NCBI GenBank assembly: GCA_017412045.1 | Contig: JAFQOX010000128.1 | Location: 93,012-146,181 of the forward strand | DNA length: 53,170 bases | DNA from: Clostridia bacterium | Lineage (GTDB): Bacteria; Bacillota; Clostridia; Oscillospirales; CAG-272 | Reading direction: 5' to 3' | The notes under the pieces: model-generated | What the model was told of the DNA's origin: nothing | The model's database searches: none | Seen by the model: only the letters and a program-made list of their open reading frames with translations | Part shown: positions 27,739 through 35,513 of the stretch, piece after piece | Numbering within the stretch: position 1 is the stretch's first letter | Layout of the letters: each line of letters opens with the position of its first letter | Translations under genes and position numbers: made by a program

Positions 27739-27817
27739 GAATCCATTTGTAATATCGGAGCCGAGCGGTAAAGCGGCGATCGTAAGCGACTCCAAAAAAT
27801 ATAGAAGGGAGATGATT

Positions 27818-29353
27818 TTGCTTGATATGTCGGATCGACAAATAATATCATGGAAGCCTGCGGTATTTCGCATTTTTTGCGCGGTTTTGATCCTGTGCGT
27901 CACAGGCGCGTGGCTGTTGTGGAGTCGGGATGATGATTTGACCGAGCAGTACAGCATTCAGATTGTGGAGCCGACCTGTACGGAAAATGGATATAGTCTG
28001 TATACCCACATTGAAACCGGAGAGGTAACGGTAAGGGATGTGGTTGCAGCCAAGGGGCACACCTTTGATCCATGGGTGTTGATTGCTGTCGGCGATGAAG
28101 TCAACTGCGGCTTTTCCAAGCGCGTCTGCGAGGTTTGCGGTCATGAGGAAACGCGGGCAGAGTATCCGAATTTGCCGATTTCCAGAATTTCGCTCTACGG
28201 TTCTCTGGATGGAATCGGGAAAAAGGCGGAAGTATCGATGACTGCTTGTTTGGAGCTGGCGGAGGATGACATTTCATTGGAATGTTACGCCACGCTGAAA
28301 TATCAGGGGCATATTTCCTTGTCCTATAACAAAAAGAACTTTACGCTAAAGCTGTACAACGACAAGGATCATCAAAAGAAGAATAAGCTGAAGCTCAGCC
28401 ACTGGAACGAAGAGAACAAATACATTTTGAAAGCCAATTATGTGGATGCCAGCCAGTGCAGAAATTTGGTTTGCGCAGATGTGTGGGCAGATATGTGCGC
28501 CGCGCGTCCGTTGCTTCCCAAAGAACTTCATACGCTGTCCAATTACGGCGCGGTGGACGGATATCCGGTGGCAATTTATCTCAACGACCGTTTTTACGGT
28601 CTCTTTACGATGAATCTTCATAAAGATGACGATCTCTTTGCCATGAAGGAAGGCGCGCAACACGCCATCATGATTTGTAACCATGGTTCTATGCCGGAGG
28701 CGACGTTCCATGCCGAGGCGGAATTCACAGAGAACAGTCCATGGGAAGTGGAGTATTGCGGAACAAAAGACGACGCATGGGCAAAGGACAGCTTCAATGA
28801 GCTGATCCGATTTGTGAGAATCAGTGATGACGCAACCTTCCGTAAAGAGCTTTCTGCGTATTTGGACGTGGATGCCGCCATTGATTATCTGATCGCTCTG
28901 TATGCCTTGGGGCTTACCAACCACACGGATCAGGATCTGGTGCTTGTAAACTACGGCGACGTGTGGATCCCGTCGCTGTATGATATGGAAACGGCTTTCG
29001 GCTTGGCAGAAGGCGGTTCCGACCTGCATGATCCTACAGTATTTTTGCCGACTCGTGACGGTGACGGATGGAACTCCGATACCGGTCACTTGCTTTGGGA
29101 CCGATTGCTTCAAAACTTCGGGGATGAGATTTGCGCAAGGTATCAAATCTTACGGACTCAGATTCTGGATCCCCAAACGCTCTGTAACCGCGTCACGGCT
29201 TTTACGGACAGAATTCCCTCTGTGATTTATGAGGAGGAAGAGGAGATTAATCCTCATCCTCAATCATATGGAGAGAGCAAAGCGCAAATTTTAAATTATA
29301 TACCCGGGAGAATTGAAGCATTGGATAAAATTTTTTTGAAAGGATTGAATTAA
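27818..29353 (+). CDS. Membrane-anchored CotH-family kinase
   Basis: CotH proteins are atypical secreted or cell-surface kinases; in Bacillus CotH phosphorylates spore-coat proteins. This 511-residue protein has an N-terminal membrane anchor (about residues 15-32) and a small module with PTCTENGY and CEVCGHEETR. The kinase core has SYNKKNFTLKLYND, EENKYILKANYVDASQCRN, YGLFTMNLHKDDD and the metal-binding-type YDMETAFG (about 388). GAAGGGAG lies six bases before the TTG at 27818; the ATG at 27812 would be too close to that site, and an ATG at 27827 is the other option. It starts a four-gene cohesin-dockerin run; the next ATG comes one base after its stop. Unlike many clostridial CotH proteins it has no dockerin. 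Confidence 0.88.
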   Translation: MLDMSDRQIISWKPAVFRIFCAVLILCVTGAWLLWSRDDDLTEQYSIQIVEPTCTENGYSLYTHIETGEVTVRDVVAAKGHTFDPWVLIAVGDEVNCGFSKRVCEVCGHEETRAEYPNLPISRISLYGSLDGIGKKAEVSMTACLELAEDDISLECYATLKYQGHISLSYNKKNFTLKLYNDKDHQKKNKLKLSHWNEENKYILKANYVDASQCRNLVCADVWADMCAARPLLPKELHTLSNYGAVDGYPVAIYLNDRFYGLFTMNLHKDDDLFAMKEGAQHAIMICNHGSMPEATFHAEAEFTENSPWEVEYCGTKDDAWAKDSFNELIRFVRISDDATFRKELSAYLDVDAAIDYLIALYALGLTNHTDQDLVLVNYGDVWIPSLYDMETAFGLAEGGSDLHDPTVFLPTRDGDGWNSDTGHLLWDRLLQNFGDEICARYQILRTQILDPQTLCNRVTAFTDRIPSVIYEEEEEINPHPQSYGESKAQILNYIPGRIEALDKIFLKGLN

Positions 29354-29354
29354 A

Positions 29355-32300
29355 ATGAAGCAAAAATGGAAAAAACTCCTCAACGTCTGTTCCGTTGTGG
29401 CGTTGGTTGCGGCAATTGTGGTTTCCGCCGGCATGATGCTCTTCAGCGAAGTCATGGCGGGCTGGAACGGCACGACTGCAACAGCGTTTGCATCGGGAAG
29501 CGGAACGGAGGCAAACCCCTACGTGATCAATACGCAAAATCAGTTGGGGTACTTTATGAAGCAGCTGAATGCAGGCGTGACTTATGAAGGTCTGTATATC
29601 AAGCTGGATACCAATCTGGATATGACCGGAGGCAAATGGTCGGTGAATGAAAGCGCGTCCTTTGCAGGTACTTTCCTGGGAAACAATAAAACGCTGACCA
29701 TGGACAGTAACTTTCTCGGTACCATTGCCGCAACGGGCAAGGTGGATTGGTTAAATCTGAAGGGCTCGGGTACTTTGAGCACACCGCTTTTGTGCTACGA
29801 TAATAACGGTACCATTCAGAACTGCCGTGTCAGCGGCGACGTGAGTATGAGCCAAATTGAACAAGCCGCCCTGCTGTGCTTGAACAACAACAGCACCGGC
29901 TTGGTCGTGAACAGCTGCGGCTTCGGTTCTGTATACGGCGATAGCGAGAACCAGGATTCCAGCTGTTATGTGGGCTGGATCAGCAAGAGCAAGGGCACGA
30001 TCAAGAATTGCTATGCTGTGCTGACCCTCGAAGGTAGCGCTCCCGGTTCATATAACAAGCTGTATACCGGGCAGATTACTGCGGAAGGCACTTATGAAAA
30101 CTGTTACGGCGGCACTGATGCTATCTCATACGATGTATCTTTCGTCGCAAAGTTGAATGCGTCCGTGGGTGCATCCGGCTATATGTGGACGGCTGACAGC
30201 AGCAACGTCAACAAGGGGTATCCCATTATCAAGGAGTGTCTGTCCGCGACGACAAATCTGTCCGGCTCTGCGGAATCCTTGGTGGTATTCCATACTACCA
30301 CCTTCTCTGCAACACTCACTTCCTCCGAAACGGGTTGCACGATTTATTATACGCTGGACGGCACGGATCCCAGCACGTCCGGCACCCGTAAAACCTACAG
30401 CTCGCCGATTTCGATCGAGCAGGATACGGTTATCACCTCCGTTGCTTGCAAAAACGGCGTTTACGGCGTGTCCACCCGTCAGCAGATCGTACGGCTTTTG
30501 GGCGCAGGTACTACGGAATCTCCCTATATCGTTTCCACCAACAAGCAGCTTTACGCCATCCGTCTGGAGCCTGACAAGGTCTATGAGCTGAACCGTGACC
30601 TGGATTTCACCAATGATCCCAAGAATGATCGGGGTGCGAATTGGGAAAGCATTCCGTCCTTCTCGGGTGAATTGCGCGGCGGAGGACACAGCATTACCGG
30701 GCTGTCTTCCGTTACCGGCGGCTTGGTGGACGTTAACAATGGTCATATTCAGGAGCTGCGTCTGATCGACCACCAGCTGAGTGTGTCCGGCGCTACGGAG
30801 TCTTACTTCGGCGCGATTGCCAACTCCAATCATGGCACGATCACACGTTGCTATGCGGGCGCGGATCCCGATGCTGATATATATACGGAGGTCACCACCT
30901 CTGCCGGCGGCATTGCGGGTCGTAATGACGGAACGATCAGCTATTGCGGCACTTCCGGCACGCTGAAGCTGAAGTCGTCCGATCTTTACAATCTCATTTC
31001 TATGGGCGGTATCGCCGGTTACGGCACCGGAATCGTTCGGAGCTGCTACAGCAATATGGCGCTGTATAGCCCGAAGAGCAATCATGATTCGGGACTTACC
31101 ATTGGCGGTATTTCCTATTGCAACGCGGTGTATGACAGCCGATTCGACGGAATTTGTGTGATTTACAGCTATATTACCCACTATGGCGTCGGCTCCGCGA
31201 CAGGCACTTCTCGAGGTATTTTTAATGGCGGAGCGATATTTACCGTACCAGAAGGCACTTCCTCCAAACCTTATTACGCTAAGGAAACCGATCTTTACAC
31301 CCTCAGCGGATGGAAGGAGTCTGATTATTCTGCATTTGATTTCGACAGTGTTTGGATGATGACCGCCAGCGGTCCTATGCCTCAGGGTATTATGGGTGCA
31401 GACGGCCGTTGTATGTCCAAGTATTCCTATACTGAGCCTACCTGCACCGCTAACGGCAGCGCCGTTTCTTACGATATCCTGAATACCGGTTATCGCAAGA
31501 CCGAGACTCTGCCCATGTCGGATCACAGCTACGAGTCCGTCGTTACAGATCCCACCTGCACGGATAAAGGCTATACCACGCATACCTGTGACTGCGGTGA
31601 CAGTTACGTTTCTGACGAAACCGCCGCTTTGGGTCACACTTACGGCAGTACGCCCGAATGGATCTGGACAGGCGATTCTGAAAACGGTTATACGGCTGCG
31701 ACTGCGAAGTTTACTTGTTCCTGCGGCCATGAGGAAACCGTGACCGCTGTTGTATCCGCTCAGACCACCGATGCCACCACCGAGGCGGAGGGACAGACCG
31801 TTTATACCGCATCTGTGACCTTCAACGAAACGGAACACACCGATACCAAGACCGTTTCCATTCCCAAGATTACGGTATTTACCGTCAATGGCACGGTGTT
31901 CAGTTGGAATGATACGGACGATGCCATCTGCCTGTTGTACGGCAGCGATGTCGATGATGCCGTTATCCTTGCCGCTTGGAAGAACGGCGGCGAATATGGG
32001 GCGCTCTACACCGCGATCAAGGGCAGCATCACGGATGCAACCGTGGACGGTAAGGCGATCAAGTCCCAGACGTTCACCTTTGAGGGCGTTACAGCCGGCA
32101 CCTACAAGCTGGTGCTTCTGAAGCCCGGCAAGTACGTTCCCAAGATCGTGGAAGTTGAAGTCACCAACGAAGCGGTTGACGTAGGTCAGCAGAACCTCTG
32201 GCTGTACGGCGACGTGAATTATGACGGTGTGATCAATTCCAGAGACGTGCTCCAGGTGAAACGTTACATCAACACCAAGGGATCGGTCATCACAACCGGT

Positions 32301-32432
32301 ACGGCTGATGAAATTGCCGAAAAGATCAGAGTTTGTGATATCAACGGCGATGGTGTGATCAACTCCAGAGATGTGCTCCAGATGAAACGTTATATCAATA
32401 CAAAGGGATCTTTGTTTAACAATTTTAAATAA
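29355..32432 (+). CDS. Large secreted dockerin protein with beta-helix and CHB_HEX-type domains
   Basis: A secreted protein of 1025 residues. After a signal peptide, two regions look like right-handed beta-helix or GLUG-type repeats (about 50-300 and 385-680), separated by a chitobiase/hexosaminidase C-terminal-like module (GCTIYYTLDGTDPSTSG, about 325-375). Two surface repeats with PTCT and CGD or CGH motifs follow (about 685-860), then an X-module-like domain and a C-terminal type I dockerin. The dockerin has two calcium loops, GDVNYDGVINSRD and CDINGDGVINSRD, each followed by a VKRYINTKG-like helix. No glycoside-hydrolase domain is recognised. AAAGGA precedes the ATG. Confidence 0.85.
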   Translation: MKQKWKKLLNVCSVVALVAAIVVSAGMMLFSEVMAGWNGTTATAFASGSGTEANPYVINTQNQLGYFMKQLNAGVTYEGLYIKLDTNLDMTGGKWSVNESASFAGTFLGNNKTLTMDSNFLGTIAATGKVDWLNLKGSGTLSTPLLCYDNNGTIQNCRVSGDVSMSQIEQAALLCLNNNSTGLVVNSCGFGSVYGDSENQDSSCYVGWISKSKGTIKNCYAVLTLEGSAPGSYNKLYTGQITAEGTYENCYGGTDAISYDVSFVAKLNASVGASGYMWTADSSNVNKGYPIIKECLSATTNLSGSAESLVVFHTTTFSATLTSSETGCTIYYTLDGTDPSTSGTRKTYSSPISIEQDTVITSVACKNGVYGVSTRQQIVRLLGAGTTESPYIVSTNKQLYAIRLEPDKVYELNRDLDFTNDPKNDRGANWESIPSFSGELRGGGHSITGLSSVTGGLVDVNNGHIQELRLIDHQLSVSGATESYFGAIANSNHGTITRCYAGADPDADIYTEVTTSAGGIAGRNDGTISYCGTSGTLKLKSSDLYNLISMGGIAGYGTGIVRSCYSNMALYSPKSNHDSGLTIGGISYCNAVYDSRFDGICVIYSYITHYGVGSATGTSRGIFNGGAIFTVPEGTSSKPYYAKETDLYTLSGWKESDYSAFDFDSVWMMTASGPMPQGIMGADGRCMSKYSYTEPTCTANGSAVSYDILNTGYRKTETLPMSDHSYESVVTDPTCTDKGYTTHTCDCGDSYVSDETAALGHTYGSTPEWIWTGDSENGYTAATAKFTCSCGHEETVTAVVSAQTTDATTEAEGQTVYTASVTFNETEHTDTKTVSIPKITVFTVNGTVFSWNDTDDAICLLYGSDVDDAVILAAWKNGGEYGALYTAIKGSITDATVDGKAIKSQTFTFEGVTAGTYKLVLLKPGKYVPKIVEVEVTNEAVDVGQQNLWLYGDVNYDGVINSRDVLQVKRYINTKGSVITTGTADEIAEKIRVCDINGDGVINSRDVLQMKRYINTKGSLFNNFK

Positions 32433-32450
32433 GAACAGGAGAAAATTATC

Positions 32451-34568
32451 ATGAAAAAACGTATTGCCTCATTTTTTATGGCACTTTGTTTTGTGATCGT
32501 CATGCTTCCGACGACGGTGTTGGCTGTAGGCGAACATGGAATTTCCGTCAGTGCAACAGAGGTAAAGAACGGCGATACTTTCACAGTAACGCTGACGATT
32601 CCCGCTATCAGCGAGCCTTTGTCCAATCTTGATTTGCAAATCAGCTTTGATTCTTCTGCGTTTGAAGTCATTGAGTATACAAAACCTGCATTTGCAGGTA
32701 TGAGTAATACCACCGGTGAAGCGAATGCTGTCGGAAAGATTACTTGTATGCATGAATCTGAGACGGGTGATAATGATCTTACCGGCTTGCAAAGCGGCGG
32801 AACCATGACCGCTACCTTCAGAGTGAAGGAAACGGCCGAAAGCGGGTCCTACAACTTCGAAGTGATTGAATACGTGTTGGACTCTATCGATGAAAACACG
32901 TATGAATCTGTCAATAGAGCTCCCGCTGGCGCTGTCAAAACCGCGACCGTCAACGTTATTTCCGCCACCGACCCCTATACTGCCAATATCTCTGCCAACG
33001 ATACGGAATTTACCGTTGACGATGAAGTTGCCGTTACCGTGAACGTGGGTGGCGCCATCGGCAGCTTTGCGTCCGCCGAGATCACCTTGACTTATGACCC
33101 GGACTACTTGACCTTGAAAGAAAATCACACACTCAACGGCGCAAGCATGACCGTGAATAACGGTACCATCAAGCTGGTGGACTATGGCGAAACCAACGCC
33201 TACCCCGCCGCATACGTACTGAACTTTACCGCGGCGCAGGCGACCGCTTCTGCAACTACCGTTACTTTGACCGAGGCAAAATTCAGCACCGCCGAGAATG
33301 CGATCAGCTCCGATTTGATCGACGCCGTCGGTAAGAACGCGCTGAGCCTCACCGTCAAGAACGCGGATCTGGAGGTAACTCTTCCCGTAGGCGGTGTTGT
33401 TACCGGTAACTACACGGTTCCTTACGGCGACGATTACACCTTCGCCGCAAAGAACAATACTACCTATATGTACTATGACTATACAGTCACCGCGACTATG
33501 GGCGGACAGGCTGTCACCGCGCAGTATAATGGGGACGGAACCTGGACCGTCGCAAACGTCACCGGAGATCTGGTGATCAACGTAACCGAAACTCCCAAGT
33601 CTTATGGCGTAACCGTGAACGGTGACAATACCGTGACTGCCGAAGAGATCGCAAGGGTCACCACTTCCGCAAACACGGCGGCTTATATGACCGCTCTGAC
33701 CTACACCTTGCCCAACGGATTGGCTGCCACCGACACCGTGGACGGTTATCATTACGTTGCGACCGTAACCGTGGGCGGCGTTTCCTATATTGCTTCCGCC
33801 AGTGGTCTGACCTATACCGTCGCCGGCACTGCTGTTACCGGTGATATCGTGATCACGCTTTCCAAAGTGATTGATCCTGCCGAGTCCGTTAACGTGACCA
33901 TTCAAAATTCCAATGAAATTCAGAAGGAAGGCACGACTGTTACCGAATTCGTTGCTGACAAAAACAGCCAAGTTACCCTGACATTGGTTCCCGAAGTCGG
34001 CTATACCTATGTGATCAACGACGGCACCAAGAATCTGACCGTGAACGATGACGGCACCTTCACCGTTGATATCGGTACGACTGCCGTTACGATCAACGTC
34101 ACCAAGACTTTGGATGTGACCTCTGTTAACGTTCAAAATTACATCCAACTGAACGATACCGTTATGTGGTTGGTTACGATCAATGGCAACGGTACGGCAG
34201 AGATCAACGGCAAGACCTACAGCTATGGCGGTCAGAATATGTACTGGTCCTCCAAATATCAGGCGTACTGCTATCTGGTTGTTGCCCAAACTCTGAGCGT
34301 TGACACCGCAAAGGCAGCCATTGGCGATACGTTGATCGAGGCTAACGCGATTGACGTTGAGTACAATATGGATGTGAACAACACCAACGGCAACGTTGAT
34401 GCAAACGACGCACAGTTGGTTTACAATATGTACCAGACCAAGGCTTACGATGGCTTTGATACGGTTGGTATGATCAAGTTCCTGGAAGCTGACCTGAATA
34501 ACACTGTCGGTGTGGATGCTACTGACGTTCAGGTGATCCTCAACAATATTCTGAACATTACCGGCTGA
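32451..34568 (+). CDS. Secreted bi-cohesin-like protein with C-terminal dockerin-like region
   Basis: A 705-residue secreted protein. After a signal peptide it has two cohesin-like domains: about 25-165 (VKNGDTFTVTLTIP, NLDLQISFDSSAFEVIEY) and about 170-300 (FTVDDEVAVTVNV, SAEITLTYDPDYLTL). A middle region of Thr-, Asn- and Val-rich Ig-like repeats follows. The last 70 residues resemble a dockerin, with DVNNTNGNVDANDAQLV and DLNNTVGVDATDVQVIL loops. A protein with both cohesins and a dockerin is organised like an adaptor scaffoldin: it could hold two dockerin partners and itself dock on an anchored cohesin. Cohesin assignment is by pattern only. Confidence 0.8.
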   Translation: MKKRIASFFMALCFVIVMLPTTVLAVGEHGISVSATEVKNGDTFTVTLTIPAISEPLSNLDLQISFDSSAFEVIEYTKPAFAGMSNTTGEANAVGKITCMHESETGDNDLTGLQSGGTMTATFRVKETAESGSYNFEVIEYVLDSIDENTYESVNRAPAGAVKTATVNVISATDPYTANISANDTEFTVDDEVAVTVNVGGAIGSFASAEITLTYDPDYLTLKENHTLNGASMTVNNGTIKLVDYGETNAYPAAYVLNFTAAQATASATTVTLTEAKFSTAENAISSDLIDAVGKNALSLTVKNADLEVTLPVGGVVTGNYTVPYGDDYTFAAKNNTTYMYYDYTVTATMGGQAVTAQYNGDGTWTVANVTGDLVINVTETPKSYGVTVNGDNTVTAEEIARVTTSANTAAYMTALTYTLPNGLAATDTVDGYHYVATVTVGGVSYIASASGLTYTVAGTAVTGDIVITLSKVIDPAESVNVTIQNSNEIQKEGTTVTEFVADKNSQVTLTLVPEVGYTYVINDGTKNLTVNDDGTFTVDIGTTAVTINVTKTLDVTSVNVQNYIQLNDTVMWLVTINGNGTAEINGKTYSYGGQNMYWSSKYQAYCYLVVAQTLSVDTAKAAIGDTLIEANAIDVEYNMDVNNTNGNVDANDAQLVYNMYQTKAYDGFDTVGMIKFLEADLNNTVGVDATDVQVILNNILNITG

Positions 34569-34580
34569 TCCCACATAGCA

Positions 34581-34610
34581 TACTGCTCCTCTCGTAAGGG
34601 AGGAGCAGTA
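34581..34610 (+). terminator. Hairpin between adaptor and anchor genes
   Basis: TACTGCTCCTC and GAGGAGCAGTA form an 11-base-pair stem with an eight-base loop. No T-run follows, so it may act as a partial terminator or an mRNA-stabilising end that lowers expression of the last gene relative to the scaffoldin. Confidence 0.6.
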
Positions 34611-34643
34611 CATTATGAATCCTTAATTTGAAAGGGAAACCCT

Positions 34644-35513
34644 ATGAACTTCAAAAAATGGCTCCTTTTTCTTTTATCGAGCCTATTTCTGTCTCTGTCG
34701 CTTTGCGCTCCGGCGATGGCGGCGGAGAATCCTTCGTTTCGCTATGAGATCACGGTAGACGGGAGGGACACCGTAGAGGTTACCCCCGGCGAGATCATCA
34801 CCGTTACACTCTACCTGTACCGAACCGATTCAGACAAGGCCTACGTGATGTATGCCATGCAGGACGAGATACGCTACGACAGTGAATTTCTGGAGCTGGT
34901 GCCGAATAGCGTCCTGCTGTCAAATGGCGTCAGCTCCACGGATATTGCCGTGGGCGACGGCTTGCGTGAATTCTACATGAACTACGTGTCGATGTCCGGC
35001 GGCGCGCAGTGGCAGAGCAAGACTCGTATCGGCTCCTTCCAATTGATGGTTACCGCAGAGAGCGGCGTAACCACACTGACCAGCAAAGATTTTCTGGTAT
35101 CTCTGCCTGACGGCAGCGGCAGCTACGATTGCGAATCCAAGGACTTGACCGTTATTCTTTCCACTGCTTGTACCGTAAAGTTTGAAAGCAACGGCGGGAC
35201 TCCCATCGAACCGATCACTGCGATCTACGGCGAACTGCTGTCTCGTCCCGAAACGCCTGTACGAGAGGGCAAGCAACTGGTCGGCTGGTTCAAGGATATT
35301 CATCTGACCGAAGAATGGAACTTTGAAACTGACACGGTGAGCGGTAACATGACGCTGTATGCCAAGTGGGAGGACGGCACCGCTGATCCTGACGATCCCG
35401 ACGTGGATGACGATGCCTTCGATTATCGCCCCGTGCTGATTTTGACACCCGTTGCGATTGCACTGCCGCCGGCTGTATATCTGCTTATCTGCAAGTTAAA
35501 AAAACGAAGCTGA
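34644..35513 (+). CDS. Membrane-anchored cohesin-like surface protein
   Basis: A 289-residue protein with a signal peptide (cleavage near APAMAAE), a single cohesin-like domain (about 30-170: VTPGEIITVTLYLY, DEIRYDSEFLELVPNS), an InlB/Listeria-Bacteroides-type repeat (about 177-243: VKFESNGGTPIEPI, GWFKD, MTLYAKWED), a short acidic linker (DPDDPDVDDD) and a C-terminal membrane helix ending in KLKKRS. No LPXTG motif is seen, so anchoring is by the membrane helix. It would present one cohesin at the cell surface, fitting the last element of the cluster. Confidence 0.82.
   Translation: MNFKKWLLFLLSSLFLSLSLCAPAMAAENPSFRYEITVDGRDTVEVTPGEIITVTLYLYRTDSDKAYVMYAMQDEIRYDSEFLELVPNSVLLSNGVSSTDIAVGDGLREFYMNYVSMSGGAQWQSKTRIGSFQLMVTAESGVTTLTSKDFLVSLPDGSGSYDCESKDLTVILSTACTVKFESNGGTPIEPITAIYGELLSRPETPVREGKQLVGWFKDIHLTEEWNFETDTVSGNMTLYAKWEDGTADPDDPDVDDDAFDYRPVLILTPVAIALPPAVYLLICKLKKRS

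Follow-up and report, generated by a model that had tools for sequence, protein, structure and literature searches.

The last three of four consecutive plus-strand genes in the window (the whole stretch of 53,170 nucleotides that was analysed) probably form a self-contained, non-cellulosomal surface-display cassette, in which the joint at the anchor is shared among loci and the joint at the client is private to each locus. The first gene of the run encodes a CotH-domain protein and, judged from its motif and its occurrence, would be best explained as a neighbour peculiar to this lineage, its active-site motif being altered. The features on which this reading is built are the following, with coordinates in the window:

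27812..29353, plus strand: CotH-domain protein P0001, 513 aa, N-terminal hydrophobic helix at residues 11-39 (ORF, Pfam, hydropathy)
27947-28156 and 31527-31742, plus strand: Cys-rich PTCT..G segment, residues 46-115 of P0001 and 725-796 of P0002 (2e-6)
28919..28936, plus strand: residues N370-H-T-D-Q-D375 of P0001 (alignment A5; D370 and N375 in 13/13 relatives)
29355..32432, plus strand: client P0002, 1025-aa secreted protein (ORF; Fn3_assoc, GLUG below cut-off, dockerin)
32205..32399, plus strand: symmetric type I dockerin of the client, residues 951-1015 (Pfam, solved dockerins, symmetry)
32451..34568, plus strand: adaptor P0003, 705 aa, two cohesins and an X-like domain plus dockerin (X+dockerin) at the C-terminus (ORF, six-frame search, fragments, profile)
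32544..32879, plus strand: adaptor cohesin 1 (PF00963, 5.0e-9 six-frame; fragment 1e-9)
32997..33299, plus strand: adaptor cohesin 2 (PF00963, 5.1e-6 six-frame; fragment 1.6e-6)
34104..34565, plus strand: X-like pre-dockerin domain and asymmetric dockerin of the adaptor (alignment A4; Dockerin_1 0.01; 4uyq_B 0.015)
34581..34610, plus strand: inverted repeat without a T run between adaptor and anchor genes (by eye; missing from the list of the promoter and terminator scan)
34644..35513, plus strand: anchor P0004, 289 aa, cohesin, Flg_new and C-terminal membrane helix (ORF, Pfam, six-frame search, hydropathy)
34767..35090, plus strand: anchor cohesin (PF00963, 2.6e-5 six-frame; fragment 2.4e-5)
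35172..35366, plus strand: Flg_new (Listeria-Bacteroides) repeat of the anchor (Pfam, 4.1e-18)
35430..35498, plus strand: C-terminal membrane helix of the anchor, residues 263-285 (hydropathy)

The four open reading frames of the ORF list (513, 1025, 705 and 289 aa) are separated by 1, 18 and 75 bases, and sequences resembling ribosome-binding sites were seen by eye 5' of genes two, three and four; that of the client gene, AAAGGA, sits within the end of the CotH gene. The first-pass annotation had placed four consecutive genes with these domains at 27818..35513; the genes and domains are borne out by ORFs, Pfam, the six-frame search and hydropathy, whereas the start moves to the first ATG, at 27812. 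As had also been claimed, Pfam, NCBIfam and fragment scans recognised no carbohydrate-active catalytic domain in any of the four proteins, and no hydrolase was seen in the window; NCBIfam matched solely within the Flg_new region of the anchor. A promoter and terminator scan of the locus gave results near chance. The hairpin at 34581-34610 perhaps tunes the adaptor to anchor ratio or the stability of the mRNA.

The client was described earlier as a secreted dockerin protein of 1025 residues, in agreement with the signal-like N-termini seen in the hydropathy plot of the proteins and a Dockerin_1 (PF00404) match of 1.1e-16 (61.2 bits against a cut-off of 22.9); solved dockerins are matched with a best value of 3.1e-6. 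It also carries Fn3_assoc (3.8e-10) and a GLUG match under its Pfam cut-off, and Pfam revealed no hydrolase domain in it. The adaptor is less conspicuous. Scanned whole it gave no Pfam match, and scanned in pieces it gave both cohesins and a weak Dockerin_1, in line with the two-cohesin protein with a dockerin-like end that had been proposed. The cohesin fragments of adaptor and anchor score 39.1, 28.8 and 25.0 bits against a cut-off of 24.1, and all three cohesins pass in the six-frame search. The Dockerin_1 match at the adaptor C-terminus has 16.5 bits, under the cut-off of 22.9; among adaptor homologues, those of L084 (26.3 bits) and L082 (23.6 bits) are above it and those of L080 and L083 below. 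No Pfam family exceeded its cut-off in the approximately 300 residues between cohesin 2 and the dockerin.

Searching the PDB with the adaptor alone returned nothing useful. An 18-sequence profile of the adaptor family matched scaffoldin cohesins among the solved structures (best 3l8q_A, 9.3e-10), with a weak match to the scaffoldin dockerin 4uyq_B at profile positions 619-679, which is the expected place, and weak antibody-chain matches confined to profile positions 8-70. Because this profile matches solved scaffoldin cohesins, a reading of the cohesins as unrelated Ig folds is not favoured. Profile searches gave cohesin and dockerin matches for the three partners, the adaptor's dockerin being the weak one. 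As a whole protein, the anchor has a Pfam Cohesin match of 6.9e-5 (23.5 bits, just below the 24.1 cut-off). Its profile, A3, matched no cohesin among the solved structures; in hhalign it aligned with other cohesins at 88.9%, over 51 columns only, and with the adaptor family at 97.8%, the match lying partly over leader peptides. The label of membrane-anchored single-cohesin protein given to it holds for the cohesin and the C-terminal helix but is incomplete, as a Flg_new repeat is additionally present.

The three genes recur elsewhere. Profile A3 identified 22 loci in named MAGs, many of them labelled as coming from the gut of sheep, goat, deer or buffalo, and had matches in 6 of 295 genomes of the family, 9 of 394 of the order and 8 of 386 of the class, overlapping sets that each include the own genome. 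This amounts to 36 distinct loci besides the window, namely the 22, eight more (L142-L149) and a further six (L192-L197), L191 being a repeat of L126; L106, L124, L125 and L123 are the same loci as L080, L081, L082 and L084, respectively. Among the 36 anchor matches, the weakest, with values as high as 3.7e-11, are possibly ordinary cohesins, and the loci are not independent, as L112, L114, L115 and L119 on the one hand and L118 and L120 on the other look closely related. Adaptor homologues, some of them partial, are present in 7 of the 295 family genomes, the own one included.

The pairing of the anchor gene with X+dockerin is specific. At 29 of the 36 other anchor loci (21/22, 6/8 and 2/6 by locus set) X+dockerin adjoins the anchor, lies one small gene off or is fused to it; within the set of 22 it is directly upstream at 16 loci, separated by a small cohesin gene at 4 and fused at 1. 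In L127, a single protein of 941 aa unites LRR_5, a weak cohesin match, X+dockerin and the anchor cohesin. Two of the seven loci with no adjoining X+dockerin are at contig ends (L146, L192) and five are not (L111, L148, L193, L196, L197). As for controls, the X+dockerin profile had a match in one of 40 cohesin loci of the family that have no such anchor and in none of 20 further regions; the anchor profile matched nothing in these 60 neighbourhoods. In L119:1529-10978, three X+dockerin and two single-cohesin proteins stand in a row, likely an expanded version of the arrangement.

The cell-side and cargo-side proteins vary among these loci. Three SLH repeats replace the membrane helix in L081/L124, L082/L125, L084/L123 and L142, and in ten loci (L110, L112, L114, L115, L117-L122) the third protein, judged by eye, finishes with a Flg_new-like repeat and lacks both helix and SLH, so that "anchor" may misname it there; that of L112 has two Flg_new stretches by Pfam. 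A Dockerin_1 protein above cut-off stands beside the adaptor at 14 of the 22 loci, and a Pfam-supported client dockerin is absent from L110, L111, L113, L116, L120 (unscanned), L122, L123 and L127. Other domains of the clients are LRR_5 (L108, L124, L125), beta-helix (L109, plus FIVAR below its cut-off), GLUG (L112 and L115; below cut-off in L114 and L126) and Ig-like (L117, L121, L126).

The two joints are conserved in opposite ways. Over 19 loci (L110, L111, L122 and L127 left out), the anchor cohesin averages 0.54 in pairwise identity and the adaptor dockerin 0.47, whereas adaptor cohesins 1 and 2 average 0.19 and 0.31, respectively; the Flg_new repeat of the anchor, at 0.55, is about as conserved as its cohesin. 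Each half of a client dockerin has a 14-residue helix; the two helices, marked by eye in 16 of 20 sequences (L118b, L120b, L121b and L123 omitted), are 0.78 identical within a protein (lowest 0.36), a value reached by none of 10,000 shuffles, and among loci the helices are 0.24 identical. The halves of the adaptor dockerin are 0.26 identical within the protein and 0.66 and 0.44 among 21 loci (L107 and L119c skipped). Since most clostridial dockerins are symmetric as a matter of course, this trait by itself does not set the client apart. For enzyme dockerins, passages of PMC5429695 describe internal symmetry as permitting two-way binding and asymmetry as accompanying one-way binding. Read by this rule, the identities make the client joint look two-way and locus-private, and the anchor joint one-way and shared.

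In the assembly that we propose, the anchor would hold its C-terminal helix in the membrane and present its single cohesin outward, and the X+dockerin end of the adaptor would dock into that cohesin. Each adaptor cohesin would receive the symmetric dockerin of one 1025-aa client, and, since there are two of them, a single stub could show up to two copies of this giant at the surface, where it would have no catalytic role and would probably be an adhesin. Between anchor and adaptor the joint would be a standard common to the loci, and the adaptor-client joint would have diverged into a key private to each locus. Who binds whom, the stoichiometry and the adhesin role are what we infer from sequence; the chain itself, from anchor cohesin through adaptor to dockerin client, had been suggested by the first-pass annotation and is supported by the recurrence of the three genes and the opposite conservation of the joints. 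If true, it would be a natural modular display kit with one cell-side coupling and exchangeable cargo couplings.

Non-cellulosomal cohesins and dockerins are known, Peer et al. 2009 being cited for such pairs, and their architecture is mostly unexplained; a standard joint combined with a private one makes the question testable. Cohesin-dockerin assembly without a cellulosome is a kind already known, to which the cassette would add a variant, and full-text searching, in those parts of the literature that it covers, gave no description of the three-gene cassette. The nearest likeness is the anchoring of scaffoldins, for which sections of PMC5429695 describe how the ScaB dockerin of Ruminococcus flavefaciens, bound to the ScaE cohesin, tethers a scaffoldin to a surface cohesin protein, and an excerpt of PMC11557425 defines classes of polyvalent adaptor, SLH anchor and membrane-helix anchor. 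Here too the adaptor is predicted to be held, through the dockerin that it carries, by a cohesin protein at the surface; unlike cellulosome anchoring, however, the evident client in the window is a non-catalytic giant next door, and no hydrolase with a dockerin above cut-off was found in the own genome. R. flavefaciens also has non-catalytic dockerin proteins (LRR, transglutaminase-like and others of unknown kind), and some of its group 4 dockerins were suggested in PMC2930009 to have a part in structuring the cell surface, although that organism has 223 dockerin proteins (as given in a passage of PMC5429695) and the window a three-gene cassette. The two-protein assembly of Clostridium perfringens, treated in part of the text of PMC5429695, places cohesin-dockerin outside cellulosomes as well, but its dockerin is reported as single-mode, whereas the client dockerin of the window is symmetric and an adaptor layer is added.

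The remaining gene of the run had been read as a kinase beside its likely substrates, such that CotH would phosphorylate client or adaptor and govern assembly at the cell or spore surface. The label of membrane-anchored CotH-type protein agrees with a Pfam CotH match of 1.4e-24 over residues 162-500 and the hydrophobic stretch at residues 11-39. In favour of the kinase reading, the CotH and client genes lie one base apart with the AAAGGA of the latter inside the former, Ser and Thr together make up 21% of the client and 20% of the adaptor, and the CotH protein and the client have in common the Cys-rich PTCT..G segment, which matched no Pfam family. Segments like it are seen in many large proteins of the family.

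The surveys argue against this reading. A CotH profile broadened over two rounds, the second with 52 rows, matched the window CotH, a second CotH gene of the own genome on a different contig (1e-61) and four genes in L087. It matched nothing in 611 kb from the 36 other cassette loci, in 676 kb from 40 other cohesin neighbourhoods of the family or in 288 kb from 20 control regions. Those strong relatives of P0001 that were examined are solitary, with no cohesin or dockerin neighbours. The four-gene unit is thus rejected, since CotH does not co-occur in the other cassette loci; of the gene order surveyed in relatives, the three-gene core recurs and the unit including CotH does not. The active-site motif is a second objection. 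In alignment A5, which has 14 rows, thirteen sequences carry D at column 370 and N at column 375, and P0001 carries N and D there. In a wider set of 27 distinct sequences, one of them cut short, 26 have a residue at column 370: 21 show D, the 4 from L087 show E, and only P0001 shows N. At column 375, 20 sequences show N and 5 show S, and D is seen only in P0001. We take D-x4-N to resemble a kinase catalytic loop and D370 to be equivalent to D228 of B. subtilis CotH, an inferred mapping by which P0001 shares the Pfam CotH domain of that spore-coat kinase but has Asn at the putative catalytic column. PDB searches for CotH found no structure onto which to map P0001. In B. subtilis, according to passages of PMC7821199, the D228Q and D251A forms of CotH are inactive. 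The reciprocal N370/D375 swap might retain some chemistry, and a CotH domain is not necessarily a working kinase.

Locus L087 is a real exception in kind. In L087:76-14121 (G193:C41), from the same family, an LRR_5-cohesin-dockerin gene and a two-cohesin gene are followed on one strand by four tandem CotH genes (Pfam, 7.5e-24 to 8.5e-31), with neither anchor nor X+dockerin; a cohesin system free of hydrolases has here been paired with CotH independently. If a 2.6 Mb genome carries about two CotH genes, as the own one does, we estimate that one chance neighbour in the DNA scanned would be unsurprising, so that two CotH-cohesin loci offer a lead but do not make a pattern. CotH-like proteins also occur in some cellulosomes (stated in part of PMC12484212). 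As for the spore surface, SpoIVA was found in the own genome (1.7e-113) and in 10 of 11 genomes tested, the own one included, so the organism is probably a spore former, and nothing observed links the cassette itself to spores. Phosphorylation of client or adaptor by CotH is unsupported and, in our judgement, unlikely, and it is kept alive because of L087; should the CotH gene matter, help in assembly is more likely than phosphorylation. A possible, tentative extension of the display cassette would be a scattered family in gut Clostridia with one shared coupling of anchor and adaptor, different giant adhesins being exchanged by way of symmetric dockerins private to each locus; here it would also have recruited a CotH relative, its putative catalytic Asp and metal-site Asn reciprocally swapped, to serve the adhesin either as a pseudokinase that aids assembly or as a transferase of atypical kind.

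A reduced cellulosome, whose adaptor would recruit carbohydrate-active enzymes that were lost or are absent from the draft genome, has some points in its favour: the ruminant gut labels of many relatives, the CBM9 repeats in the large neighbour of L123, which has no dockerin, and a GH10 domain joined to the adaptor dockerin of L110. The GH10 is the sole hydrolase domain seen in the 22 loci, and on its account hydrolases are not strictly excluded from cassettes. Against this, clients carry mainly LRR, GLUG, beta-helix and Ig-like domains, and each of five other cassette genomes yields 1 to 5 dockerin matches when E values up to 0.01 are counted. The own genome has 2.57 Mb in 158 contigs and is 87.7% complete; in it, the cohesin profile matched the three cohesins of the window above cut-off and one weak candidate elsewhere, and the dockerin profile matched the client above cut-off, the adaptor below it and one weak candidate elsewhere; no dockerin-bearing glycoside hydrolase was above cut-off. 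A primary scaffoldin would have many cohesins and a CBM for cellulose; here there is the two-cohesin adaptor, with no CBM in the four proteins and no further cohesin above cut-off. A full cellulosome is rejected for this genome, its cohesin and dockerin inventory being nearly closed to the cassette, and we consider the reduced form very unlikely. Most improbable would be direct binding of the client dockerin to the anchor cohesin with the adaptor as a separate decoration, since the anchor cohesin is conserved across loci and client dockerins are not, and the conserved adaptor dockerin accompanies the anchor gene and is fused to it in L127.

The display cassette probably lies in a variable region of the genome, as indicated by the missing window genes at the corresponding sites of congeners. 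Six congeners have no anchor and retain the three downstream genes, which by reading encode ribosomal proteins S9 and L13 and release factor 1; none of the window genes tested between 22.5 and 36.5 kb was found upstream of these three at E 1e-8, the upstream DNA available being at least 3.6 kb in four congeners and less than 0.4 kb in two. Genes with a tyrosine-recombinase-like C-terminus were seen by eye near the cassettes in L148:8851-9723 (minus strand) and L149:1711-2601 (plus strand), which suggests mobility or shuffling, and there is a similar gene in L197:4847-6100. A MoxR-type ATPase-like gene, also recognised by eye, is found near the cassette with further membrane genes alongside at L112:14804-15739, L114:14798-15733, L115:14843-15778 and L191:3787-4734.
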